Below, piece after piece: positions 39,845 through 51,689 of a stretch of DNA of 64,000 nucleotides; position 1 is the stretch's first letter; each line of letters starts with the position of its first letter. The DNA is from an uncultured Clostridia bacterium. GTDB taxonomy: Bacteria; Bacillota; Clostridia; Oscillospirales; Ruminococcaceae. The notes beneath the pieces were generated by a model. The model ran no database searches, was not told where the DNA came from, and saw nothing but the letters and a program-made list of their open reading frames with translations. The translations under genes and the position numbers were made by a program. The stretch lies in contig CALZUA010000001.1 of NCBI GenBank assembly GCA_945829235.1, forward strand, positions 1 to 64,000, given 5' to 3'.

Positions 39845-39880
39845 GAAAAGAGGGAATGCAACTGCACTCCCTCTTGTTTT
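39845..39880. terminator. Bidirectional terminator
   Basis: GAGGGAATGCA pairs with TGCACTCCCTC (one mismatch), flanked by an A-rich left and a TTGTTTT right side. It ends the sigma operon (plus) and the Ter operon (minus). Confidence 0.8.
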
Positions 39881-39891
39881 ATCGGGTAATC

Positions 39892-41067
39892 TTACGCTTT
39901 CATACGCTTTTTGTAATCAGCCTTAATCTGCTCGAGAGCAACAGCGTCGGTCTTGCGCTTTTCGCGAGCCTGATCCTGAATTGCCTGAACCTCGTCGATA
40001 CCATTGACGATAGTCTGCCAAGTCTGCTGGAGCGTTTCAACCTTGATAGAGGAATTTGCCGCCATAGCCGCAACCATCTTCGACTGGTCAACAGTATTCT
40101 GCGCGTTCTTGAGGAGCATTTCGTTGGTCTTTTCATCAAGAGCCGCCATACTTTCAGCCTGAATTCTCTGGCGCTTGAGCATAATCGCCTGCGCGAGAGC
40201 CTGCTTGAATACGGGCATTGTGATGATGAACGCGGAGTTGATTTTTCTTACGAGGTTGAGGTTGGAGTATTCCATTGTCTTGAGCATCGGAACCGTCTGA
40301 AGCGCAACGTTCTCGGCAACCTTGAGGTCCATAACTCTCTGGTCGAGGATTTCACGCATCTGCTGGAGGTTGGACAAATCCATACGGATTGTGCCGTCAT
40401 CGGGGTTCTCGGAAACCTTTGCCTGATACTGCTCGATAAACGCGTCAAGCTCCTTCACGCCCTGCTCGCCCGCCATAATATACTTGACGAGTTGCTGATA
40501 ATAGCCGAGATTTGCGTCATACATCGCGTCAAGCTTCTTGTTGTTAGCCTCGATTTCGCTCTCGTACTGCTTGAGCTGAACGTAAATCTTGTCGATATCC
40601 TTGCCCATATTATCGTACTTGCTAAGGATTTTCTCGAGCTTTTTCTTGAGGTTGCCGAAGAAGCCGGGCTTGTCGTCCTTGATTTCATCGATATCGAACT
40701 GGTCCATAATGTTCGCGAGCGCCTTCATCATATTGCCGGTATCGTTGATTTGAGCAAGGCTCATCGAGTTAAGCACTTGGTCGGACGCCTTGGAAATCTC
40801 GTCAGCCGCTTCCGCACCAAACTTAACGATAGTGGAGCTGTCGTTAACGTTGATTGTGGAAACAATCTTGTCGATTTCCTCGCTGGTAGCGAGCTGTTGC
40901 TTGATTTCATCGGTCTTTACCACGATGTTGAAATTCTTGACCTCTTCGATTTTCGCGTCAAGAGCCGCGGCATCGGGAGTTGCTGTGGTAACAACCGTTC
41001 CGGTGGTTTCAACAACCTGAGGTTGTGCTTGTGCCTGAGCGGCGCCGGGTGTGAACTGTAATCCCAT
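39892..41067 (-). CDS. telA: TelA-family toxic anion resistance protein
   Basis: 391 residues, mostly long helices: SKYDNMGKDIDKIYVQLKQY ... DLSNLQQMREILDQRVMDLK ... LQTVPMLKTMEYSNLNLVRK, the TelA (PF05816) signature. There is a Q/P/T-rich N-terminal tail of about 35 residues. TelA/YceH proteins act in tellurite and cell-envelope stress tolerance, with unknown biochemistry. It is the last gene of the Ter operon, after yceG, as in Bacillus (yceG-yceH). Confidence 0.95.
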   Translation of the reverse strand: MGLQFTPGAAQAQAQPQVVETTGTVVTTATPDAAALDAKIEEVKNFNIVVKTDEIKQQLATSEEIDKIVSTINVNDSSTIVKFGAEAADEISKASDQVLNSMSLAQINDTGNMMKALANIMDQFDIDEIKDDKPGFFGNLKKKLEKILSKYDNMGKDIDKIYVQLKQYESEIEANNKKLDAMYDANLGYYQQLVKYIMAGEQGVKELDAFIEQYQAKVSENPDDGTIRMDLSNLQQMREILDQRVMDLKVAENVALQTVPMLKTMEYSNLNLVRKINSAFIITMPVFKQALAQAIMLKRQRIQAESMAALDEKTNEMLLKNAQNTVDQSKMVAAMAANSSIKVETLQQTWQTIVNGIDEVQAIQDQAREKRKTDAVALEQIKADYKKRMKA

Positions 41068-41102
41068 AGTCTTTTTCCTTTCTTAACTTCGCGCATTGCG
41101 CT

Positions 41103-43280
41103 TTAATGTTTCCCGAACAGCTTTCCGAAAAAACCGCCGTTCTTTTCCTCAGAGGGTATTTTGAATTTCGGAACCTCTACGTTGTACAAAAATTTATTCA
41201 TTATATGCTCCTCGAAAGCGTCGTTTGTGACGAAGGTTTCGAGGTTTTTGTAACCGGAGGGAGTGTAAATCAGCACGTCAAAGCCGATTAGGTTGCACAA
41301 AACGATTTGTATGCACTCTTGCAGTGTGAACGTGTCCTCAACAGCGTCGATGTAGATGAGCTTGGGGATTTTCCGCGTGAAATCGAAGCGCTGGATAATC
41401 TGGAGCATCTCCTTGCTGAAGCTCATTCCGTAGTGGATTACCGCGCACATCAGGTCGTCGCCCTGCAATTTCAGGAACCCCGACGAGCACGCCTCCTGCA
41501 ACTTGTAGAACAGCATATCCTGTATTCTGTCGGGCAAAAATCCGTACTTGTTCATCGGGCTGTTCTTGAGCCGTTCCGCGTCGATTTCACCGTTTCGGTA
41601 AAACTGCCGATACGCCGACAAATCGGGAATTTGCTCATTTCCGTTCGCTTTTTTCTCAACCAAAATAGTTTCGGGAGTTAACTTTTTGCGAACGTCCTCC
41701 CAGTATTTGTCAAGATTTCCGTCCTCAACACCGCTGATTTTCGCGAACACATTCGGCACGGAAACCAGATTTCCCGCCGTAGAAAAGCCCTGACGGAAAC
41801 GCGCTTCTTCTTTCCAGAGAATGTCGATTTCCTCGAAGGTTGTTTTGAGGGTAACGCTTTGGCTGTTCGGGAACTGGAAATTGCGGTAAATTCCGGTATC
41901 GCCGCCGTAGAGCTTTGTATCAAGCTCGCGCTCCGCCGAATACGCAACCGTTGCCACCTTCATTTTGGCGGCTTTTGTGGGATAAGTGCCGCTATCTCGA
42001 GATTGCGGGAGCTTGAAAATCTGCATTCGCGAGTCGAGATTTTTTGAAGCGGTAAGCTCGGCGTTGTTGAGGTTGGGGGAGATGTAAATCACGTCAAACC
42101 CGCACCGCGACATAAAGTTGAGGAAATACACCTCGCTTTGCGAAATATCTCCGTAATACAAAATCACGGGAATATCCTCGTAGCGCACGGAGTATTTTCG
42201 CGCCTGAGTGCAACGGTAGAGCCACGTTATCAGCTTGTTCGCGTAGTTGAGGACAACGGTTTGGTTGCCGGTATCGAGGCTCGAAAGCACCTCTTTGAGC
42301 GCACGTTGAGCAAGCGCGGTTCGGGTTCTGTCGCCGGGCAGATTTATCGACATCGCCAACGCGTCAATCATCGCTTCCGTGCCGGTTCGCGTGACCGTGC
42401 CGAGCGCTTTCACCTCGTCCGCGTTGGGATTTGAGAGCGTTTTCTCGATGAAGATGAGCTGTTTTTTCAGCCCCGCGAAGCTCTCCTTGAATTTCACGAG
42501 CATATTTGTGTACACAACGTCCTCGTCAAATCCGAGCAACGCCGCACAGTAAACGGGAATTTCGCCGTCCTCCGTGTACACGCCGCCGTTTGCGATAACG
42601 CGGTTTTTTCTGTCCTTGAGGAAGTCCTCGAAAATGCCTGCGGCTGTTGTGGAAAGCCGCTTTACAAGCCCGCTCACGCGTTCACCCTCGGCGTGCATTT
42701 CGGCTAATTTTGCCTCTTGTGACAGGTCGATTTTGCTGAAATCGATTTGGAGCGGCGCGGTTTCCTTGCCTGTTTTTACGACAATTCTGTCCGAGAACGC
42801 GAGCTTGTCGAAATCCTTGTCCAGCCCGTAGCTCACGAGCGTTACCTTAACCCCCGCCGCCTGCATCATCAGCAGGAAATACAGCTCGCGGAGCGTGGGC
42901 GCGCCGATAAACAGCAGATTTGACGGGCGCGCGCCGAGATATTTTATCAGCCAGCACAAAATCACGAAATAAGTATTTTTCTTATTCGCGCCGCACTCCA
43001 CGACAGCCTTCGCCATAATTTCGGCAATTGCCGCGCTGTCGCAGGGAATATTCGCGGCGTGAAGCCACATTTCGAGCGCTTTTTTGATATCGTCCGCCTT
43101 GTCGAAGCTTGCCGCCGTGTAAGCCGAAGCCGCCGAAATCTCGGTTGTTGTCGCCATCGGCAACTTTTCCTTAAAGAACAGCCCGCCCTTTTGTGAAGCC
43201 GCAAACTGCTGTATCAGAAATCCCCGAAAGCTGTCGGCGTTGTCATAGCCGACATATCTCGTAAACTCCCGTAACGCCAT
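41103..43280 (-). CDS. YceG-family protein of the Ter cluster
   Basis: 725 residues. The pattern VLNYANKLITWLYRC ... DIPVILYYGDISQSEVYFLN ... GFDVIYISPNLN is characteristic of the YceG family (PF14266) found between terD-like genes and telA; the C-terminal part repeats a similar FTLQECIQIVLCNLIGFDVL ... YTPSGYKNLET. The fold resembles a Rossmann-like biosynthetic domain and the family has been proposed to act in a Ter 'biosynthetic module'. Chemistry is unknown. The length is longer than the Bacillus YceG. It lies 18 bp after the TerD fusion gene. Confidence 0.82.
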   Translation of the reverse strand: MALREFTRYVGYDNADSFRGFLIQQFAASQKGGLFFKEKLPMATTTEISAASAYTAASFDKADDIKKALEMWLHAANIPCDSAAIAEIMAKAVVECGANKKNTYFVILCWLIKYLGARPSNLLFIGAPTLRELYFLLMMQAAGVKVTLVSYGLDKDFDKLAFSDRIVVKTGKETAPLQIDFSKIDLSQEAKLAEMHAEGERVSGLVKRLSTTAAGIFEDFLKDRKNRVIANGGVYTEDGEIPVYCAALLGFDEDVVYTNMLVKFKESFAGLKKQLIFIEKTLSNPNADEVKALGTVTRTGTEAMIDALAMSINLPGDRTRTALAQRALKEVLSSLDTGNQTVVLNYANKLITWLYRCTQARKYSVRYEDIPVILYYGDISQSEVYFLNFMSRCGFDVIYISPNLNNAELTASKNLDSRMQIFKLPQSRDSGTYPTKAAKMKVATVAYSAERELDTKLYGGDTGIYRNFQFPNSQSVTLKTTFEEIDILWKEEARFRQGFSTAGNLVSVPNVFAKISGVEDGNLDKYWEDVRKKLTPETILVEKKANGNEQIPDLSAYRQFYRNGEIDAERLKNSPMNKYGFLPDRIQDMLFYKLQEACSSGFLKLQGDDLMCAVIHYGMSFSKEMLQIIQRFDFTRKIPKLIYIDAVEDTFTLQECIQIVLCNLIGFDVLIYTPSGYKNLETFVTNDAFEEHIMNKFLYNVEVPKFKIPSEEKNGGFFGKLFGKH

Positions 43281-43298
43281 TTCTTTTTTCTCCCTTTT

Positions 43299-44522
43299 TT
43301 ATTGTTCAACCTGAATACCGAAGCGGTTGCAAAGCCTTGCCATACCGTCGTTGTAGCCGCTTCCGACAACGGAAATTTTCCATTCGCCCTTGTAAAGATA
43401 GAGCTCGAGCGCGACTGCGGTGGTTTCGTTTTTCAAGTCGCTCATCACATAGGAAAGCCGTTCAAAGTCGGTTCTGAGCGACACCCGCGGGTTTCTCGTG
43501 AGCGAGAAATTGCTGTTGGCATTTCCCGCGTAAATCGAGTAGGCAAGCGTGATTTTCTTCACCCGATAATCAACCTTTGCAAGGTCGATTTCGATATGCC
43601 CGTCCTTTGGGAAAAACCGCACCTCGCCGTTCGGTGAGCTTTCGTTTCCGAAGAACACCAAGCTTCTGTCCTCGAGCGCCTTTTCGTTTTCATCGAGCAG
43701 AAAAACGTACGCATCGATGTCCATTCCGACAGGTTTTTCGCAGGTGAACCACACGGAAAACCGTGAACCCAAGTACCCCGCCAGCGACAGCCGCTGTCCC
43801 TTTTTCATTTCGAGAGCGGCGAGCGCGCTGTTTGCCTGATTTGTCATCGAAACAACGTCGCTCTCGGGCAACGTTGTTTGCACAGCAGTCTGCGAAAAAT
43901 CACGCTCGGGTGCGGTATAAATGCACTTGTTCACCGCGGGAATATCGGCTTTCGGCTTTCCCATAAGGTAAACCCGCCTTACAAACCGCGTCCTGAACAG
44001 GATTTCCGCGTATAACAGGGTTTTCTCGGAGATACCGCTTACCGTTATCGTGAGGTCATTTCTGCCCTTTTCGAGCGTTTTCGGCGAGATAACAATCTCC
44101 TTGATATCGCACAAAATCTCGGTTTTTTCGGGAACGTTCACCGAGAGCGTAAACGTGTTTTCCGCATCGGCAAGAAATTCCCCGAGATTTATCGTCCGCG
44201 GTACATCGAAAAATCCGTCCTCTGCGCCGAATCCCGACACGCTCCCCAGCACCTCGACATTTTTCGCGTCAGCGGGGAAGTAAGCCTTGATTGCGCAGTC
44301 GGTTTCGCTACTTTCGGTAAGCTCCGCGCGGATATCCGAAATGGAAACGCCGGGTGAATTTATCTCGATAACGCTACCTTTTTTTGCCCAAACGGTTGTG
44401 TTTTTGCCGGAAATCCGGAGCGGCTTTGCGATAATAACGGGTCCTTCAAATTCACCCGCAGGCAACGTTATATCCGCGCCGGGAAGCGCGCCGTCAATTA
44501 TTCTGTTGATATCCTGATTCAA
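43299..44522 (-). CDS. Beta-rich N-terminal domain fused to TerD domain
   Basis: 407 residues. Residues about 1-95 look like a right-handed beta-helix edge (LPAGEFEGPVIIAKPLRISG, then KNTTVWAKKGSVIEINSPGV), about 100-190 a second beta domain, and from about 235 a TerD domain (MKKGQRLSLAGYLGSRFSVW; DIDAYVFLLDENEKAL; FFPKDGHIEIDLAKV; LYLYKGEWKISVVGSGYNDG). TerD domains bind Ca2+ through clustered acids; here GMDIDAYVFLLDE keeps part of the set, while the first loop is changed. Such a fusion could target a TerD module to a polymer or surface. The function is inferred only from the operon. Confidence 0.75.
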   Translation of the reverse strand: MNQDINRIIDGALPGADITLPAGEFEGPVIIAKPLRISGKNTTVWAKKGSVIEINSPGVSISDIRAELTESSETDCAIKAYFPADAKNVEVLGSVSGFGAEDGFFDVPRTINLGEFLADAENTFTLSVNVPEKTEILCDIKEIVISPKTLEKGRNDLTITVSGISEKTLLYAEILFRTRFVRRVYLMGKPKADIPAVNKCIYTAPERDFSQTAVQTTLPESDVVSMTNQANSALAALEMKKGQRLSLAGYLGSRFSVWFTCEKPVGMDIDAYVFLLDENEKALEDRSLVFFGNESSPNGEVRFFPKDGHIEIDLAKVDYRVKKITLAYSIYAGNANSNFSLTRNPRVSLRTDFERLSYVMSDLKNETTAVALELYLYKGEWKISVVGSGYNDGMARLCNRFGIQVEQ

Positions 44523-44555
44523 AGCGTCGCCCCCCGAGTTGGATTATTTTGTAGA

Positions 44556-45140
44556 TTAAACGTTAACGCCGTAGCTTCTGCAAAGCGCTTCAAGACCGCC
44601 CTGATAGCCTGCGGCAACCGCGTTGAACTTCCAGTCGCCGTTGTAGCGGTAAATTTCGCAGACAACAAGCGCGGTTTCGATGGAGAACTCCTCAACCAAG
44701 TCAAAGCGGAGAACCTCTTCGCCGTTCTGGTCATCGGGGTTGTCGATTTTGACAACGCGAACGTAGGAGTTGGAAACCTGACCGAAATTCTGATTTTTCT
44801 GCTGTGCATCGAAAATTGTTACGGTAACGGCAATTTTCTCGATTTCCTGCGGAACCTTCGTGAAATCGATGATGATAGCCTCATCGTCGCCGTCGCCCTC
44901 GCCGGTACGATTGTCGCCGGTGTGAACCACAGCGCCGTTTCTTGCGGAGAGGTTGTTGTAGAACACGAAATCCTCGTCGCGGAGAACCTTGCCGTTTGCA
45001 CCGAGCAGGAAAACACACGCGTCAAGGTCGAAATCCTGACCGCCATCGTATCTGTTGATGTCCCAGCCGAGACCGATTCTCGCCATTGTAACCGATTTGT
45101 CGAGAGAAACTCTCTGTCCTTTGGAAAGATTTACTGCCAT
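44556..45140 (-). CDS. terD: TerD-family calcium-binding stress protein
   Basis: 194 residues, a complete TerD domain: VNLSKGQRVSLDKS, the acidic Ca2+ site GWDINRYDGGQDFDLDACVF, GDNRTGEGDGDDEAIIIDF and the final YRYNGDWKFNAVAAGYQGGL. TerD/TerE proteins bind Ca2+ and underlie tellurite and membrane-stress tolerance. It is the canonical copy; the next gene encodes a second, modified TerD domain. It is 47 bp after the Ca2+-ATPase gene, a meaningful pairing for a Ca2+-binding protein. Confidence 0.96.
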   Translation of the reverse strand: MAVNLSKGQRVSLDKSVTMARIGLGWDINRYDGGQDFDLDACVFLLGANGKVLRDEDFVFYNNLSARNGAVVHTGDNRTGEGDGDDEAIIIDFTKVPQEIEKIAVTVTIFDAQQKNQNFGQVSNSYVRVVKIDNPDDQNGEEVLRFDLVEEFSIETALVVCEIYRYNGDWKFNAVAAGYQGGLEALCRSYGVNV

Positions 45141-45187
45141 AACTATTTCCTCCTTATAATACGTTCAGCTCAAAGAGCGAGCGTTTT

Positions 45188-47923
45188 TCACTTGTTTTTT
45201 GAAATGGAATTTGCGATTGCTTTTCTGATGAGGTCAATCGGGATAATCGAAATCGCCATTGCCAGAACGAGCGCCCATTCAACAAGAACCAGACCCCAGC
45301 CGCTTAAAATTGCGCCGCCAACGTAGGTCATAACAATCTGAACTGCCGTGATGATGCCGAAAACTATGAGGAAGCCTCTGTTTTTGCCGAGGTTGTCGAA
45401 GATGTTGAGCTTTTCGGTTCTCGCGTTGAAGGAGTTGAACACGGCAATCAGGATAAAGAACGCAAAGTACGCTGTGTGAAGAATTGCGTGAGGTTCGCCC
45501 TCAATGGTGATATTGCGGAGCAATCCCCACTGTTCGAGGAAGCTCACATCGCCTGCGGGGTAGTTGCCCAAAATCAGCATAGCAACCGACAGTATAAACG
45601 TCCAGCCTGCGCCCGTGATGATTTGGCTCATCATATACTTGCTGATAATCGGCTCGTTTCTGCGCTTGGGCTTTTCGTTCATATAACGCTTGAGCGCGGG
45701 TTCGCCGCCGAATGCAAGTGCCGCGAGCGTATCCATAACGAGGTTTACCCACAAAATCTGGATAACCGACAGCGGGTTTGCGATACCGATAAGCGGGCAG
45801 ATAAACGAGATAAGAACTGCCGCGACGTTGATTGTGAGCTGGAATACGATGAACTTTCTGATTGAATTGAAGATTGTTCGACCGTAAAGGATTGCCTTGT
45901 CGATTGAGTTGAAGTTGTCGTCGAGAATAACGATATCCGAAGCTTCCTTGGCAACCTCTGTGCCGCCGCCCATCGCGAAGCCAACATCTGCCTTTTTGAG
46001 CGCGGGTGAGTCGTTTACGCCGTCGCCCGTCATACCGGCAACGAGGTCAAGCTCCTGCGCAAGCCGCACGAGGCGGCTCTTGTCGGAGGGAAGCGCACGC
46101 GCGATAACGCGGATATCTTTGAGCTTTGCCTTGATTTCCTCGTCGGACATCTTCGACAATTCATCGGACGTGAGCATAAGATTTGTTTTTTCGTCATCGA
46201 TAAGACCGGCTTCTTTTGCGATAGCAACAGCGGTTTCTCTGCGGTCGCCGGTAATCATAACAACCTGCACTCCCGCGCCTTTAACCTCTTTGATAGCGGT
46301 AACGGACTCGGGGCGAACCTCATCGCGAATGCCAAGACAGCCAACTAGCGTCCAGTTGTTGCCATCGGGAAGCGAGTCCTCGCCGAGAGCGTCCTCGCTT
46401 GTTGCCAGCGCAAGAACACGGATTGCACGGTTAGCAAGCTCGTCAATTTTCGCGTTAAGCGCGGTCATATTGAACGGCTGTTTGTTGCCGTCCTTGTCGT
46501 AATAGTGAGAGCAGCGCTGCAAAATCTTCTCGGGCGCGCCCTTGATAAGCGAAAGCGAATACTGACCGTCAACCTGTGTTGCGGAGTATTTGTTTGTGGA
46601 GTTGAACGGGATATTGCCGACAGCGATTACGTCCGCATTTGACGGGTTATCGACAGCGTAACCGAGGATAGCACGCTCGGTTGCGTTTCCGCCGAGAACC
46701 TTGCGGTCTTTGCCCTCGCCGCTGATAATAGAGAGCGTGTTTTTGTGAATGGACAGCGCAAGCAAATCTTTGAGCTTTCCGTCAACATCATTCATCGTCT
46801 TGTACTCGTTTACAGCGCCGTCGATGAAGTTAATCGCCTCGAGTTTGCCCTTGGTGATTGTGCCCGTTTTATCGGAGAACAGAATGTTCAGCGAGCCCGC
46901 TGTTTCGATACCCGCAACCTTGCGGACAAGAACGTTGTCCTTGAGCATTTTGCCCATATTCTGCGCGGAAACAATGGCAATCATAAGCGGAAGTCCCTCG
47001 GGAACCGCCATTACGATGATGATAACCGCAAGCATAATTGCCTGAATTACCGCCTCGATAAGCGCCATCCAAGCGAAATTGCCGGAAGCGTCAAGCAGGA
47101 ACAGCATAGGATTGAAGCCCGTATCGAACAGAATAGTTTTCGCGAGCATTGCGATTGCGATAGCCACACCGCCGATGTAGCCGAATTTGGAGATGCCGTT
47201 TGCGAGCTTTGTGAGCTTGAGCTTGAGGGGAGTTTCGCGGTCGTCATCGGTCTGAAGCTCACTTGCAATTTTACCGTAAACCGACTTGTCGCCGACAACG
47301 GTAACCTGCATAACCGCGTTGCCCGAGCAAACGACTGCGCCGCGGAAAACCTTGTGCTCGTTGTCGAAATTGATGTTGTCATCGGTATCCGTCCAACCGT
47401 CCGGAATTGCGATTTTCTTAGCTTCGCGGCTCTCGCCGTTCAGTACCGACTGGTCAACCTTGATATCGCCGTCAATCAGTATACCGTCAGCGGGGATTTT
47501 GTCGCCCGATTGAAGCAAAATCGCGTCACCGACAACGATGTCGTTGATAGCAACCTCGGAGATTACGCCGTTTCTGTACACCTTGCACATAATGCGCGAA
47601 GCTTCTTCTTGGAGTTTTTGGAACGCGTTTTCGTTTCTGTACTCGGAGAAGGTTGAAACGAGCGTAGCAAGGCAGATTGCGATAAAAATTCCGAGCGGCT
47701 CGAACCATTCGGGCGCGCCCTCCTTGATAACGCCGGTTATGCCGAGAATTGCCAGCACAACGTTGATAAGAAGCGCTACTATGAGGATTTTAATCATCGG
47801 GTCGCCGAGATTGCCTTTCAGTTTATCCCAAAAGCTCTCGGAGGCTTGTTCTGTCATAGAGTTGTCGCCGAATTTTTGTTTGCTTTCGGCAACCTCTTGG
47901 TCTGTAAGTCCGAATTTCTTCAT
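45188..47923 (-). CDS. Calcium-transporting P-type ATPase (P2)
   Basis: 911 residues, the SERCA/PMCA-like architecture: an N-terminal cation-ATPase domain, an actuator (KVDQSVLNGESREAKK), ten predicted membrane helices, the phosphorylation motif SDKTGTITKG, the hinge MITGDRRETAVAIAKEAG and MTGDGVNDSPALKKADVG. Helix M4 contains VPEGLPLMIAI (PEGL, Ca2+ site). It exports Ca2+. Placement between the kinase gene and terD suggests it is part of the Ter stress response. It has complete catalytic motifs, in contrast to the pseudo-ATPase at 26471-29494. Confidence 0.95.
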   Translation of the reverse strand: MKKFGLTDQEVAESKQKFGDNSMTEQASESFWDKLKGNLGDPMIKILIVALLINVVLAILGITGVIKEGAPEWFEPLGIFIAICLATLVSTFSEYRNENAFQKLQEEASRIMCKVYRNGVISEVAINDIVVGDAILLQSGDKIPADGILIDGDIKVDQSVLNGESREAKKIAIPDGWTDTDDNINFDNEHKVFRGAVVCSGNAVMQVTVVGDKSVYGKIASELQTDDDRETPLKLKLTKLANGISKFGYIGGVAIAIAMLAKTILFDTGFNPMLFLLDASGNFAWMALIEAVIQAIMLAVIIIVMAVPEGLPLMIAIVSAQNMGKMLKDNVLVRKVAGIETAGSLNILFSDKTGTITKGKLEAINFIDGAVNEYKTMNDVDGKLKDLLALSIHKNTLSIISGEGKDRKVLGGNATERAILGYAVDNPSNADVIAVGNIPFNSTNKYSATQVDGQYSLSLIKGAPEKILQRCSHYYDKDGNKQPFNMTALNAKIDELANRAIRVLALATSEDALGEDSLPDGNNWTLVGCLGIRDEVRPESVTAIKEVKGAGVQVVMITGDRRETAVAIAKEAGLIDDEKTNLMLTSDELSKMSDEEIKAKLKDIRVIARALPSDKSRLVRLAQELDLVAGMTGDGVNDSPALKKADVGFAMGGGTEVAKEASDIVILDDNFNSIDKAILYGRTIFNSIRKFIVFQLTINVAAVLISFICPLIGIANPLSVIQILWVNLVMDTLAALAFGGEPALKRYMNEKPKRRNEPIISKYMMSQIITGAGWTFILSVAMLILGNYPAGDVSFLEQWGLLRNITIEGEPHAILHTAYFAFFILIAVFNSFNARTEKLNIFDNLGKNRGFLIVFGIITAVQIVMTYVGGAILSGWGLVLVEWALVLAMAISIIPIDLIRKAIANSISKNK

Positions 47924-47970
47924 TGAGTTTTTCCTTTCTATAAAGCGGAATTACCGCATATTTGGTAAAG

Positions 47971-49446
47971 TTAAGTCACCATAACCTCGCAAAGCAACCC
48001 GTTTTCCTTGCCGGTCATTCTGAACACGGCGCGGTCCTTAAGCTCAATTGCGCTCCCCGATGGAACGAGCCTGCCGGACGGCGAGAGCATACCCTCAACC
48101 GAGCTGTTAACGAGCAACCACATTCCGTTGTAAAACGCGGTATAGGCGCGCATTGTGGTATCGGCTTTCTCGTCGTTGTGGACATTCGCGTACACCTGCC
48201 AGTCGTAAAGCGGCATTCTGTCGTACACGACAACCTGCGATTTATCGCGGAACACGCCCTTTTTGCCGCGCATTTCGCTCTTGAAATTCAGCGTAATGAT
48301 TTTTCCGGGAAGCCGCGTTTTGCAGAACGGGCAGACGGGTTGATTTTCATCGCGCAGAATGAACCACTTTTTCTCGCAGTTCGGGTTTGCGCACGGAACG
48401 AGCCTGTCCCACGCACGCAAAAGTTCGCGTTCCCACTCCATTGCGGCGGGACGTTCGGCGGGGTTGTGCAGTCCATCGACAAACGCCCTCAGAAACAGCT
48501 TTTCCAAGCCCTTTGACAGCGACTCTATCGTTATGTCAAGGTCGGGCGGTCGGTTCGAGGTATCGTTTGGATTTTCAATAAACGTTGCCATAGAGCCGAG
48601 CGCGAGGAAATCGTCCTCTTCGGCGCTGTTGTTGGAGTAAATTTTCGGACCGATAAGCGGGTGCCTGAAGAACAGGTACTCGTAAATCAGCACGGGAAGC
48701 GCGTGCAGGTCGGTCTGAACGCAGGGGAGAGCGCGGTTCGGGTCACCGAAGTCGAGTGCCATTGAAGCGAGCACCTCGGGCGCGATATAGCCGCGCGTTC
48801 CGACAACCTCGGGCGCGTATTTGTTCGGCACAACAAGACTGTCAATATCAATAACAACCGCCGAGCCGCTTTTCGGGTCAATCAGCACGTTGTTGCAGGA
48901 CAAATCCGAATGTGCCAGACCTGCTTGGTGCATTCTGCGAACGGAGCGGCAAAGGCTTATCGCCGTGCCGAGCATTGTCCTGAAATCGCCGCGTTCTGCG
49001 GGCGCGAGGTACTTGCGGTTTCTTCCCGTAAACCAGTTTGATTTTTTGTCCTTGCCGTTCAGATTGAGCACCGTCGAAGCCGAGCCGTCGAAGAAGAAAT
49101 TTCTCGGATAGGTCGGGCAGACAATCCCAAATTCGGGCTGTTGAACAATCGCGACAGGCCAGCAAAAGCGCTGTCTGAAATATTCGGCGGTTTTTTCGGT
49201 ATTTCCGAGCGCGCCGCCGTCCGCTTCGGAAAGAGTCGGGTTGTATATGCCGACAATGGTTCTGATGCGGTCTTGCAGGCGCGGGTTGAGCGAGTCTGCG
49301 GGATTGTTGAAAAATTGTACGGCAAAGCGCCTGTCGGGGGTGAAAAAGGTGTGCTTCATACCGCCGCGGGGCGCGTTTGCGTCGTACACATATTCAATTG
49401 TGTTGCCGTTGTCGAGAACGGCGGTTAACACGCTTCCGCTGAGCAT
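47971..49446 (-). CDS. Ter-associated protein kinase with zinc ribbon
   Basis: 491 residues. A serine/threonine-kinase-like catalytic core: HSDLSCNNVLID (about 178-189, catalytic loop HxDxxxxN), VVIDIDSL in place of DFG (D retained), and GTRGYIAPEV (activation and APE-like). A zinc ribbon follows (CANPNCEKKWF ... CPFC, about 353-378), then a beta-rich C-terminal domain (VFRDKSQVVVYDRMPLY ... RLVPSGSAIELKDRAVFRM) that resembles an FHA-like fold. With the VWA and PP2C genes it forms the TerY-phosphorylation triad. Confidence 0.85.
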   Translation of the reverse strand: MLSGSVLTAVLDNGNTIEYVYDANAPRGGMKHTFFTPDRRFAVQFFNNPADSLNPRLQDRIRTIVGIYNPTLSEADGGALGNTEKTAEYFRQRFCWPVAIVQQPEFGIVCPTYPRNFFFDGSASTVLNLNGKDKKSNWFTGRNRKYLAPAERGDFRTMLGTAISLCRSVRRMHQAGLAHSDLSCNNVLIDPKSGSAVVIDIDSLVVPNKYAPEVVGTRGYIAPEVLASMALDFGDPNRALPCVQTDLHALPVLIYEYLFFRHPLIGPKIYSNNSAEEDDFLALGSMATFIENPNDTSNRPPDLDITIESLSKGLEKLFLRAFVDGLHNPAERPAAMEWERELLRAWDRLVPCANPNCEKKWFILRDENQPVCPFCKTRLPGKIITLNFKSEMRGKKGVFRDKSQVVVYDRMPLYDWQVYANVHNDEKADTTMRAYTAFYNGMWLLVNSSVEGMLSPSGRLVPSGSAIELKDRAVFRMTGKENGLLCEVMVT

Positions 49447-49468
49447 AATTTACCCCCAAAGCCTTTAT

Positions 49469-49532
49469 AATCGTCATTTGTTTTTATAACATCAAGCGTC
49501 CTGTCAGCGAAGCAATCGCGCTCGTTGTCGAG
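49469..49532 (-). repeat. Decayed copy of the PP2C gene 3' end
   Basis: This segment repeats 49587-49650, the 3' end of the phosphatase gene, at an offset of 118 bp with scattered substitutions. Read on the minus strand it encodes DRTLDVIKTNDD, versus DRTLVVIKTNDD at the phosphatase C-terminus. In the copy the stop codon is TAT, so the frame runs on into the kinase gene's ribosome site. It is a partial tandem duplication filling the 138-bp gap before the kinase gene. Confidence 0.8.
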
Positions 49533-49584
49533 CAACGCGAAGCTGTTCCTCGGGAAATGACGGAGAGAATCCGCGAGTTGTCGG

Positions 49585-50922
49585 CTAATCGTCATTTGTT
49601 TTAATAACAACAAGCGTCCTGTCGTCAAAGCTCCCGCGCTCGTTGTAGTTGTCGAGCCACACGCGCAGGCGTTCCTCGGGCGTATCGCCGATGTTCATAC
49701 GAAACGCCTCGAGCGAGTGGCAACGCAGAGCCTCGCGTTTGTCCCAGAGCGCGTCAACACCCTCGGCTGAGTCGTCGGAGAGGAGCTGTTTCGCGTATTG
49801 CAGGGCAACGCTTTGTCTGCTCATCGAAACCGAGTGAAAGCGGATAGGCGCGGGGTCCTCGCCCGCGGTAAGTTCACCCTTCATCGGGATAATTCCGTTC
49901 AGCCCGAGGTCGAGGTAAAGCCGCTTCATCTTCGGAACATTCGGGAAATAATCATCGGCTACGCCGTCCGACATCAGCATAATGATATCCGAAGAACCTC
50001 TGCTGACGCGGGTTTTCGCGCCGAGTGAATTTTGGTTGGTGTTTTTCTCGGAGAGGAAATCGGTTTCACCCGAGTATTTTCCGCTGTCCGCCTCACCCAT
50101 TAACTTCAGGCAAGCGGAGGAGTCGGCGGTGCTGTCAATCGCGCATATACAGCCGTCACCGATTTGCACGCACGCCATAAAATTCCGCTTTTCGCCGTCG
50201 ATAACAAGCGGCACGACAACAGCCGCGAGAAAGGTTGTGGAAAGGTCGGAAAGCGTGGGCTTTCTGCCGAGCGCTTTCTCGTAATTTTCATCATCGACAA
50301 TCTTCGCGAGAGCGTCCTGTTGAGCGAAAAAAGCCTCCCGCGCGGACTGTTGAACAAGCGTGGCAATTCTCCCGCACGCCGCCATAAATTCGGTTGATTT
50401 TAAATCGGCGGACAACCCGTCTTTAATCTCGGGAAGCTCGTAGAAAAGCCGCTCGAGCTTATCCTTAAGGAAGGAAGCCGCGGTTTCGCAGGCAACACGC
50501 GAGCCTATTCGCGAGAGCCGCTTTGAACCCGCGCCGTCGCAGACTGCCGCGATAAAGCAGTCGTCCGTCACCGCTGTTTCAAAGAAATCGTCGCAGTTCG
50601 TGCCCTCGTGCTTGTGCTTTTTGCCGCGCACCCTCGCTCCGATAATCTCGCCGAACGGCATAACCGTGCGCTTTTGGTGAAACTCGGAGTGTTGCTCGGT
50701 CTTGTCGTCAACAATTTCCTTATATTGCCAGATATTTGCGGTATGCTCGATAACCTCCATATCCGACAACCTTTTTTGTTCATCACGCGAGGTTTCCGAA
50801 GAACCCGCATCGCCCTCGGATTTTTCGGCAATATCGGCGGTTGTTTTCGGGGAATCTTTGTTTTCGGCATCATCGGGCGTTACCGAGAGCCGCTTAGCGC
50901 TTGTGATATCAGTTTTATCCAT
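49585..50922 (-). CDS. PP2C-type protein phosphatase of the Ter triad
   Basis: 445 residues. After a charged N-terminal region of about 90, the PP2C fold is visible: GTNCDDFFETAVTDDCFIAAV, then CDGAGS (metal aspartate in DGAGS), VACVQIGDGCICAI (GDG) and MLMSDGVADDYF (SDGV-D). It would dephosphorylate substrates of the adjacent kinase, with which it forms the triad with the TerY VWA protein. It lies 18 bp after terY. The C-terminus has been partly duplicated downstream. Confidence 0.88.
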   Translation of the reverse strand: MDKTDITSAKRLSVTPDDAENKDSPKTTADIAEKSEGDAGSSETSRDEQKRLSDMEVIEHTANIWQYKEIVDDKTEQHSEFHQKRTVMPFGEIIGARVRGKKHKHEGTNCDDFFETAVTDDCFIAAVCDGAGSKRLSRIGSRVACETAASFLKDKLERLFYELPEIKDGLSADLKSTEFMAACGRIATLVQQSAREAFFAQQDALAKIVDDENYEKALGRKPTLSDLSTTFLAAVVVPLVIDGEKRNFMACVQIGDGCICAIDSTADSSACLKLMGEADSGKYSGETDFLSEKNTNQNSLGAKTRVSRGSSDIIMLMSDGVADDYFPNVPKMKRLYLDLGLNGIIPMKGELTAGEDPAPIRFHSVSMSRQSVALQYAKQLLSDDSAEGVDALWDKREALRCHSLEAFRMNIGDTPEERLRVWLDNYNERGSFDDRTLVVIKTNDD

Positions 50923-50940
50923 AAATTCACCTTAAATCGG

Positions 50941-51582
50941 TTAAGGAACAATAACAAATCCCTGAGGCGGCGGCGGAAGCTCGATAGCGTCACCGGGCTT
51001 TGCATCGATGCTCTTGGAAGAAGCCTTGATGGAGCTTGAAACCCACGCGAAGAACTGCGCCATATCGCCTGCCGTGAGGTTGTTCATCATAAGAACATTG
51101 TTGGTGATTTTTTTGAGGGTGTTTGCGTTTGCGTTGGCACCGGCACCGCAAGCGATGATATTGCCCACGGAAACCTGCTTAATCGCGTCAATACCTTCGT
51201 CAAGGTTATCGGTAGGCGCGCCGTCCGTCATAAGGAACACGAGCGGCTTCCAGTCACCCTTTTGGCTTGCGGTAGACGTGCGAACCTCGTTTTTAACGCA
51301 CTCCGCGAGAACCTTGAGCGCACCGCCGAGCGCGGTTGCACCGCCCGCCGAAATCTGCGGCTCCTTGAACACCATAAGCTCTGTGAGGGGGCTTATTTGT
51401 CTTGCGGAGCTGTCGAACGTGATAATCGACAGGAACGCGGTTTCAAGCGCCTGCGGGTCGCCCTTAAGCTCCGACACAAGCGTTTTTATTCCTTGTTTAA
51501 CAGCCTCGATAGGTTCACCCGCCATAGAGCCGCTACAGTCAAGTAGCAGATAAACGGGCAGTCGTCTGATGTAATCCGACAT
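50941..51582 (-). CDS. terY: TerY-family VWA-domain protein
   Basis: 213 residues, a stand-alone von Willebrand A domain with a complete MIDAS: DCSGSMAG (DxSxS), the threonine GGATALGGAL and MTDGAPTDN (D). The short C-terminal tail is proline-rich (IELPPPPQGF). TerY proteins are the metal-dependent adaptor of the TerY-kinase-PP2C triad. First gene of the eight-gene operon, about 80 bp after a consensus promoter. Confidence 0.93.
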   Translation of the reverse strand: MSDYIRRLPVYLLLDCSGSMAGEPIEAVKQGIKTLVSELKGDPQALETAFLSIITFDSSARQISPLTELMVFKEPQISAGGATALGGALKVLAECVKNEVRTSTASQKGDWKPLVFLMTDGAPTDNLDEGIDAIKQVSVGNIIACGAGANANANTLKKITNNVLMMNNLTAGDMAQFFAWVSSSIKASSKSIDAKPGDAIELPPPPQGFVIVP

Positions 51583-51660: not shown

Positions 51661-51689
51661 ATTATACCTCAAAAAATAATTTCTGTCAA
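51661..51689 (-). promoter_or_regulatory. Promoter of the Ter operon
   Basis: On the minus strand, TTGACA (51684-51689) and TATAAT (51661-51666) with a 17-bp spacer: full sigma-A consensus upstream of terY. No obvious operator palindrome overlaps it, so regulation may be post-translational through the kinase and phosphatase. Confidence 0.85.

Follow-up and report, generated by a model that had tools for sequence, protein, structure and literature searches.

Ter-dependent stress systems with a triad of TerY, a kinase and a phosphatase were reportedly described by Anantharaman, Iyer and Aravind in 2012. According to a suggestion noted in a passage of a Klebsiella study (PMC9933665), TerC anchors a stress complex of Ter proteins at the membrane. 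Excerpts of two further papers implicate the TerC proteins of Bacillus subtilis in supplying manganese to exported enzymes (PMC10550928) and place TerC with Ca2+/H+ antiporters in the LysE superfamily (PMC4608589). Here we describe a Ter operon in a 64,000-nt stretch of DNA (hereafter the window) from an uncultured Clostridia bacterium of the Ruminococcaceae (GCA_945829235.1, contig CALZUA010000001.1, positions 1-64,000, forward strand). According to the list of open reading frames (ORFs), the operon runs on the minus strand from 51582 to 39892 and encodes a VWA protein, a PP2C phosphatase, a kinase, a PMCA-type Ca2+-ATPase, TerD, a TerD fusion, YceG and TelA. Given the background of a TerC anchor, manganese supply and the LysE superfamily, a Ca2+-ATPase in the membrane role is the simplest reading.

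As in the TerY-triad systems, the VWA, PP2C and kinase genes are adjacent to each other and stand beside TerD. Related loci add to this likeness, as L159 and L111 carry a C-C bond lyase gene and L159 also carries PRTase_2/TRSP and StiP/Pelota genes. The window operon differs from the triad systems in having no TerC, a Ca2+-ATPase fixed in the operon, and YceG and TelA in the same operon; unlike the canonical TerC-bearing Ter operon, neither it nor its genome contains TerC. The Bacillus operon yceCDE-meeF(yceF), together with yceG/telA, resembles it through TerD paralogues, YceG and TelA, contents that we presume beyond the operon name and the control neighbourhoods. In the excerpts of PMC10550928 the membrane partner of the Bacillus operon is a TerC protein (MeeF), whereas a P-type ATPase is found here.

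We regard this conserved operon of gut Clostridia as a variant form of an already known stress system, not a new kind. At slightly below an even chance, we read it as a chromosomal Ter stress complex in which the Ca2+-ATPase fills the membrane role of TerC, TerD binds Ca2+, and a separable part is regulated by phosphorylation.

Ter-linked pump and TerC across the phylum

Among 398 genomes sampled from the phylum, 24 were TerD-positive and 98 held TerC above the cut-off of PF03741. Eleven of these 24 carried a pump in the Ter locus (G000, G048, G059, G103, G248, G254, G279, G291, G361, G383 and G393), counting G059, whose pump lies beside a 446-aa TerD-domain ORF about 4.3 kb from the TerD trio. 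One further genome, G699, was left unscored for the pump because of a contig end. TerC stood beside TerD in eight others (G063, G082, G198, G210, G214, G278, G287 and G372). Neither was seen in the loci of G126, G164, G327 and G433, which have TerC elsewhere in the genome, nor in the locus of G416, a genome without TerC. Genome-wide, TerC occurred in none of the 11 pump-in-locus genomes versus 12 of the 13 other TerD-positive genomes (11/12 without G126, whose TerD is a broken fragment of 47 bits). In other words, 23 of the 24 Ter genomes have one of the two, TerC or a Ter-linked pump, and no genome combines them. Fisher tests, which count genomes or collapsed families and are not phylogeny-aware, gave p = 1e-5 for pump versus TerC within the 24 genomes and p = 0.003 with families collapsed. 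TerC was also more frequent in pump-less Ter genomes than in TerD-negative ones (12/13 versus 86/374, p = 4e-7). Mutual exclusion within the sample is what was observed, and a displacement of TerC driven by the pump would be a further step.

A similar division appeared at closer range. Among the genomes listed for genus g189, three had TerD and the pump without TerC, while four had TerC without TerD and without a pump at E <= 1e-60. TerC was not found in the window genome, in any of the 36 other genomes of its genus, or in the 18 genomes tested from its own order. Outside the genus, 13 genomes of the order were YceG-positive above the cut-off, and 12 of them carried the pump in the Ter locus; in the thirteenth, the contig ends beside TerD.

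The pump stands with TerD in nine families (f1, f13, f14, f24, f46, f73, f80, f81 and f125). The triad, pump, TerD and fusion recur together in f125 and f80, and also in f81 (G291), where no PP2C is visible. In G254, G279 and G393 the order is VWA, PP2C, kinase, pump, TerD, a 226-aa gene, TerD, TerD and a fusion with a related N-terminal part, and G361, from another order, likewise has a fusion of this kind together with the triad, pump and TerD. The G291 locus (L105) comprises VWA, an AIM24-like gene in the position of PP2C, the kinase, the pump, three TerD genes and the fusion N-terminal part, adjoining TelA-YceG. AIM24-like proteins (PF01987) were seen within Ter operons of two families (L105:6549-7391; L159:10448-11128, the latter being the 226-aa gene). 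A preliminary description of the window had regarded the pump and the beta-rich TerD fusion as an unusual combination; with the pump in 11/24 Ter loci and the arrangement recurring in f125, f80 and f81, this view was not upheld within the phylum.

The pump belongs to a Ter-linked clade of PMCA-type ATPases

The pump gene (45188..47923, minus strand) encodes a 911-aa P-type ATPase with the phosphorylation motif D351KTGT (Cation_ATPase_C, 124 bits; E1-E2_ATPase, 122 bits). The NCBIfam model TIGR01517 (PMCA-type) matched at 580.6 bits against a curated cut-off of 507.05 and was the sole ion-specific model above its cut-off, the PMR1-type model reaching 389 of 798 bits. Residues D351, E309, N699, A702, N727 and D731 were invariant in all 34 aligned pumps. 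The ligand pattern expected of a single site (Glu in PEGLP, Asn/Asp in M6, no Glu in M5) was found as E309, N727, D731 and A702, which we take to map onto the single PMCA Ca2+ site. Among solved structures, the closest are Ca2+-ATPases: 8qmp ('ATPase 8, plasma membrane-type'), followed by 6zhf and 9euq ('lmo0841'), PMCA1 and PMCA2. With these proteins the window pump shares domains, the DKTGT motif and ion-site residues. It differs in lacking a long regulatory tail, since the Pfam core covers residues 5-903 of 911, and in belonging to a clade of its own.

In the pump tree, 22 Ter-linked pumps fell on one side of a single branch and 28 unlinked pumps, taken from the same genomes and from others, on the other, with support of 98/98 and one change. 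This tree includes all 28 unlinked matches, omits the Ter-linked G001 (partial), G520, G567 and most genus members, and carries a long-branch warning for G248. Scores against the window pump ranged from 437 to 1985 bits for Ter-linked pumps and reached at most 429 bits for unlinked ones; the G248 pump, at 437 bits, is near the best unlinked pump (429, G416).

The exported ion might instead be Mn2+, or Mn2+ together with Ca2+; the pump would then take the part that TerC (MeeF) has in Bacillus, the metalation of exported proteins, with the Ter proteins tuning the process. The excerpts of PMC10550928, which place B. subtilis MeeF in the yceCDEmeeF operon and implicate TerC proteins in manganese supply to exported enzymes, speak for it, as does a title in that paper's reference list on a manganese-sensing riboswitch and an Mn2+/Ca2+ ATPase of Streptococcus. 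The PMCA-type model being alone among ion-specific models above its cut-off (581 versus 507 bits, rounded) argues against it, and no manganese riboswitch was seen by Rfam at gathering scores in the window. We consider Mn2+ export quite improbable. Control by a manganese riboswitch was rejected as a separate candidate on the same scan, in which no Rfam family reached its gathering score in the window; no tRNA was found either.

Pump and canonical TerD are absent together in two sister genomes

Directly downstream of the pump lies the canonical TerD gene (44556..45140, minus strand; 194 aa; PF02342, 254 bits), whose product has an acidic GDN..GDGDDE loop. The loop residues D38, D40, D76, N77, D85, D86 and E87 were conserved in 50-53 of 53 sequences, and we take them to be Ca2+ ligands. 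The title of the Klebsiella TerD structure 2kxt refers to calcium-binding properties.

In two genomes of the genus, G016 and G026, the kinase gene is directly followed by the fusion gene, with a spacing of 21 and 30 bp, and the other six genes are kept. Canonical TerD was not found anywhere in these genomes, nor was a Ter-clade pump (best scores 283 and 232 bits) or TerC. The VWA, PP2C and kinase proteins of both genomes retain the checked catalytic residues. This joint absence indicates that the operon splits into a pump-TerD part and a part made of the triad, fusion, YceG and TelA. The Ca2+ dependence put forward in the preliminary description therefore appears plausible, given a PMCA-type pump beside an acidic-loop TerD and the loss of both together.

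The same data bear on another explanation, namely that the pump serves ordinary Ca2+ housekeeping and has an old linkage with a Ter envelope-stress operon, neither replacing TerC nor contacting TerD. TerC is an infrequent gene here (98/398 phylum genomes, 0/37 genus genomes), the window genome has a single pump of this type at E <= 1e-60, and the other six genes persist without the pump in G016 and G026, all of which speaks for a housekeeping role. Against such a role, the Ter-linked pumps form one clade that stands with TerD in nine families and on virus-labelled contigs, and pump and TerD are missing jointly. Moreover, among ten TerC-positive genomes outside the TerD-positive set, the best pump scored 303 bits and eight had none at E <= 1e-60. 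A housekeeping pump seems unlikely to us.

The VWA, phosphatase and kinase triad

The TerY-like VWA protein (50941..51582, minus strand; 213 aa; Pfam VWA, 58 bits) contains D15-S17-S19/T83/D120, which we assign as its MIDAS. The PP2C phosphatase (49585..50922, minus strand; 445 aa; PP2C_2, 116 bits) has the metal-site Asp residues, and the kinase (47971..49446, minus strand; 491 aa; Pkinase, 40 bits) ends in a zinc-ribbon-like Cys motif. The roles of the conserved residues in these proteins (MIDAS, metal site and catalytic loop) are presumed.

Kinase residues D181, N186, D200 and D202, which comprise the catalytic Asp/Asn and the metal-binding Asp, were invariant in all 29 aligned sequences. 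At the beta3 position, where a lysine is expected, 28 of the 29 have Gln44, each of them together with Lys31 in the Gly-rich loop; the single exception shows the conventional arrangement, Gly31/Lys44. Because the beta3 lysine is missing, the protein is classed only as kinase-like, with candidate activity. In WNK kinases the catalytic lysine is relocated, and the pattern observed here looks, from alignment, like a WNK-type relocation in bacteria. Of the phosphorylation control suggested in the preliminary description, the retained MIDAS, PP2C metal site and kinase catalytic loop keep the idea plausible, while the missing beta3 lysine does not fit it.

The TerD fusion, YceG and TelA

The TerD fusion (43299..44522, minus strand) is a three-part protein of 407 aa with a TTG start in the ORF list. 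It comprises a beta-rich N-cap, an ASH/PapD-like domain and a TerD domain without the acidic loop, which lies in the C-terminal half (TerD, 100 bits). A NosD-like beta-helix was considered for the N-cap and dropped, as one search gave E = 0.097 and another scored only 30 bits where the cut-off is 300. A plasmid search with the fusion returned 2579 records, none covering more than 80% of the query; among the 20 matches listed, identity did not exceed 29.6% and no alignment began before query residue 143.

The YceG-domain protein (41103..43280, minus strand; 725 aa) has a repeated YceG_bac domain, matched in two stretches (200 bits). Its predicted model is of low confidence (pLDDT 66.9); Foldseek returned no match at E <= 0.001, and by sequence only nitrile hydratase appeared, at E = 0.27 or weaker. 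TelA (39892..41067, minus strand; 391 aa; Pfam TelA, 322 bits) completes the operon.

Operon structure and conservation in the genus

The eight genes are separated by gaps of 18, 138, 47, 47, 33, 18 and 35 bp in operon order, and all eight protein names are backed by Pfam above the family cut-offs. Upstream lies a sigma-70 type promoter, TTGACA-N17-TATAAT (51661..51689, minus strand), which matches the consensus at 12/12 positions with a 17-bp spacer; the VWA start is 78 bp downstream of the end of the -10 element. A terminator-like site with a 12-pair stem and a T-rich tail (39848..39875, minus strand) follows TelA. The eight genes in one orientation behind a consensus promoter, as given in the preliminary description, were therefore confirmed.

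The perfect promoter was present 5' of VWA in all 23 genus genomes with a readable upstream region (the window and 22 others). It was also found in 24/24 loci of a locus set, with L041 and L047 needing a reading further upstream; named loci and genomes overlap partly (e.g. L062, L113), so these counts are not additive. Only one of 960 mononucleotide shuffles reached 12/12. Such sites occur elsewhere too: 35 perfect ones were counted in 535,609 bases of 26 loci, 23 of which hold the operon's own, and the window has three. Across the genus the perfect consensus is kept at distances of 52 to 256 bp from the VWA start.

The TerD fusion was matched in all 37 genus genomes (own included; partial in G018, at a contig edge). 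Among 24 genomes belonging to other families in the order, 22 lacked a match and the other two matched via TerD only. Because the fusion is matched in 37/37 genus genomes and the perfect promoter is found in 23/23 readable ones, the operon is not a product of chance. Far from breaking up in all relatives, the contingency named in the preliminary description, the eight-gene order is intact in 19 of the 22 genus genomes readable from VWA to TelA (own included), a count that takes in G015, with TelA cut by the contig end, and G025, with the pump in two pieces. The exceptions are G010, without TerD at the site, and G016 and G026. Main-operon TerD is also missing in G002, G005 and G007.

G007, G002, G010 and G005 have a second Ter locus (L110, L111, L152 and L153) made of VWA, PP2C, two TerD genes and another TerD fusion. 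No perfect promoter was found upstream of its VWA gene. The C-C bond lyase gene belongs to this second locus in L111, the only one tested for it.

The chromosomal surroundings are largely shared. Of 26 genus loci, 18 have GtrA next to VWA and 15 have PepP beyond TelA, with one or both present in 19. The remaining seven (L053, L058, L114, L155, L226, L227 and L228) show neither flank gene within the available stretch; in some members of the genus the operon may thus have changed position. In the window, the segment 37951-39842 between terminator and PepP holds a sigma-factor-like gene, a zinc-finger anti-sigma-like gene and a 281-aa ORF, named by reading of the sequence only. No match to these genes was found in the 26 genus loci, including the 15 with PepP after TelA.

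Related pumps on virus-labelled contigs

Related pumps, retrieved with an alignment query, occur on seven IMG/VR contigs, and in four of them TerD genes lie downstream (four in L248, three in L249, three in L250 and one in L252); L251 ends with the pump, and L253 and L254 show no TerD. In L249 and L250, both large and labelled viral, the Ter-clade pump is directly followed by its three TerD genes. It should be pointed out that their viral status is the IMG/VR label, and that of eight ORFs tested only the TerD one matched a PHROG. An unverified short fecal 'Bacteriophage sp.' record, L246, has the pump and three TerD domains, and another record, L247, has the pump alone. A quick FastTree nested L246, L248, L249 and L250 within the Ter clade, with L247, L251 and L252 coming out at its base or close to it. 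No viral copies of the fusion and no close viral copies of the pump were found in two scans.

The Jug huge gut phages, in the excerpts of PMC12363816, likewise combine TerD genes and a Ca2+-translocating P-type ATPase in one genome. In those phages the ATPase has a small protein as its partner and the TerD genes belong to other transcribed regions, whereas in L249 and L250 the pump leads directly into TerD. A broader proposal would be that Ter systems are Ca2+-handling complexes with an interchangeable exporter, either TerC or a Ter-clade Ca2+-ATPase. The pump-TerD pair would then be a mobile cassette, used in large gut phages to control host Ca2+, which Clostridia placed under a kinase-phosphatase-VWA switch feeding the fusion, YceG and TelA. 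We regard this proposal as doubtful, if still credible.

Anti-phage defence through Ca2+ or phosphorylation signalling had also been suggested. The related pump and TerD cluster of L248 adjoins a type III restriction-like pair, and the kinase resembles PADLOC kinases, which could be taken in favour of defence. This resemblance is weak, with several kinase models (PD-T4-6, MkoA and mad6) matching at E = 8e-7 or weaker; the other seven proteins had no PADLOC match at E <= 0.001, and no multi-gene match to one system was obtained. The common chromosomal site in 19/26 loci and retention through the genus also argue against a defence role, which we judge highly improbable; the suggestion made in the preliminary description is thus weakly disfavoured. 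A phage-defence island was rejected on the common site and the missing multi-gene PADLOC match, a result that does not include a search of other nearby defence genes. In L248:5561-15200 the pump and four TerD genes lie directly downstream of the type III restriction-modification-like pair (PF01555, ResIII).

Proposed working of the complex

In the chromosomal Ter stress complex that we favour, the first part would be a Ca2+ module of the Ca2+-ATPase and canonical TerD. The pump would export Ca2+, rather than Mn2+, and stand in for TerC as membrane partner, and TerD may serve as a cytosolic Ca2+ sensor or buffer. The second part would be a phosphorylation-regulated assembly, with VWA as a MIDAS scaffold and the kinase and PP2C setting the phosphorylation state of substrates that, like transport and phenotype, we infer. 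Through its ASH/PapD-like and loop-less TerD domains, the fusion would connect YceG and TelA at the membrane with TerD-type partners. Envelope damage, the presumed trigger, would admit Ca2+ and load TerD; phosphorylation would then shift and the complex would limit the damage. The part comprising triad, fusion, YceG and TelA could stand alone.

Several points weigh against this model. The absence of TerC from pump genomes is not significant alone when set against TerD-negative genomes (0/11 versus 86/374, p = 0.13), so it may be ordinary for these clades and largely follow phylogeny. TerC genomes often hold unlinked P-type pumps of the same superfamily, so the exclusivity is limited to the Ter-linked pump, and the TerD-positive G416 has no TerC and no pump in its locus. 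G016 and G026 are sisters (100/99), so their joint loss is one event, and both are drafts with completeness of 92 and 97, respectively, and a contamination of 9 in G026. TerC does not appear in these two genomes either. Their core has its catalytic residues although pump and TerD are missing, so this pair cannot be the only target of the triad, and the kinase, judged by its alignment, is missing the beta3 lysine. In addition, because B. subtilis TerC is linked to manganese in the excerpts of PMC10550928, the exchange of TerC for the pump need not mean Ca2+.

What Ter proteins do beyond tellurite resistance is an open question, and this operon offers a clean test of Ca2+ handling by Ter systems. 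If the pump does replace TerC, the ion on which Ter systems act would become directly testable. Such a replacement would further point to a reason for the presence of TerD genes and a Ca2+ pump in huge gut phages, two features that are reported but not joined in the excerpts of PMC12363816.

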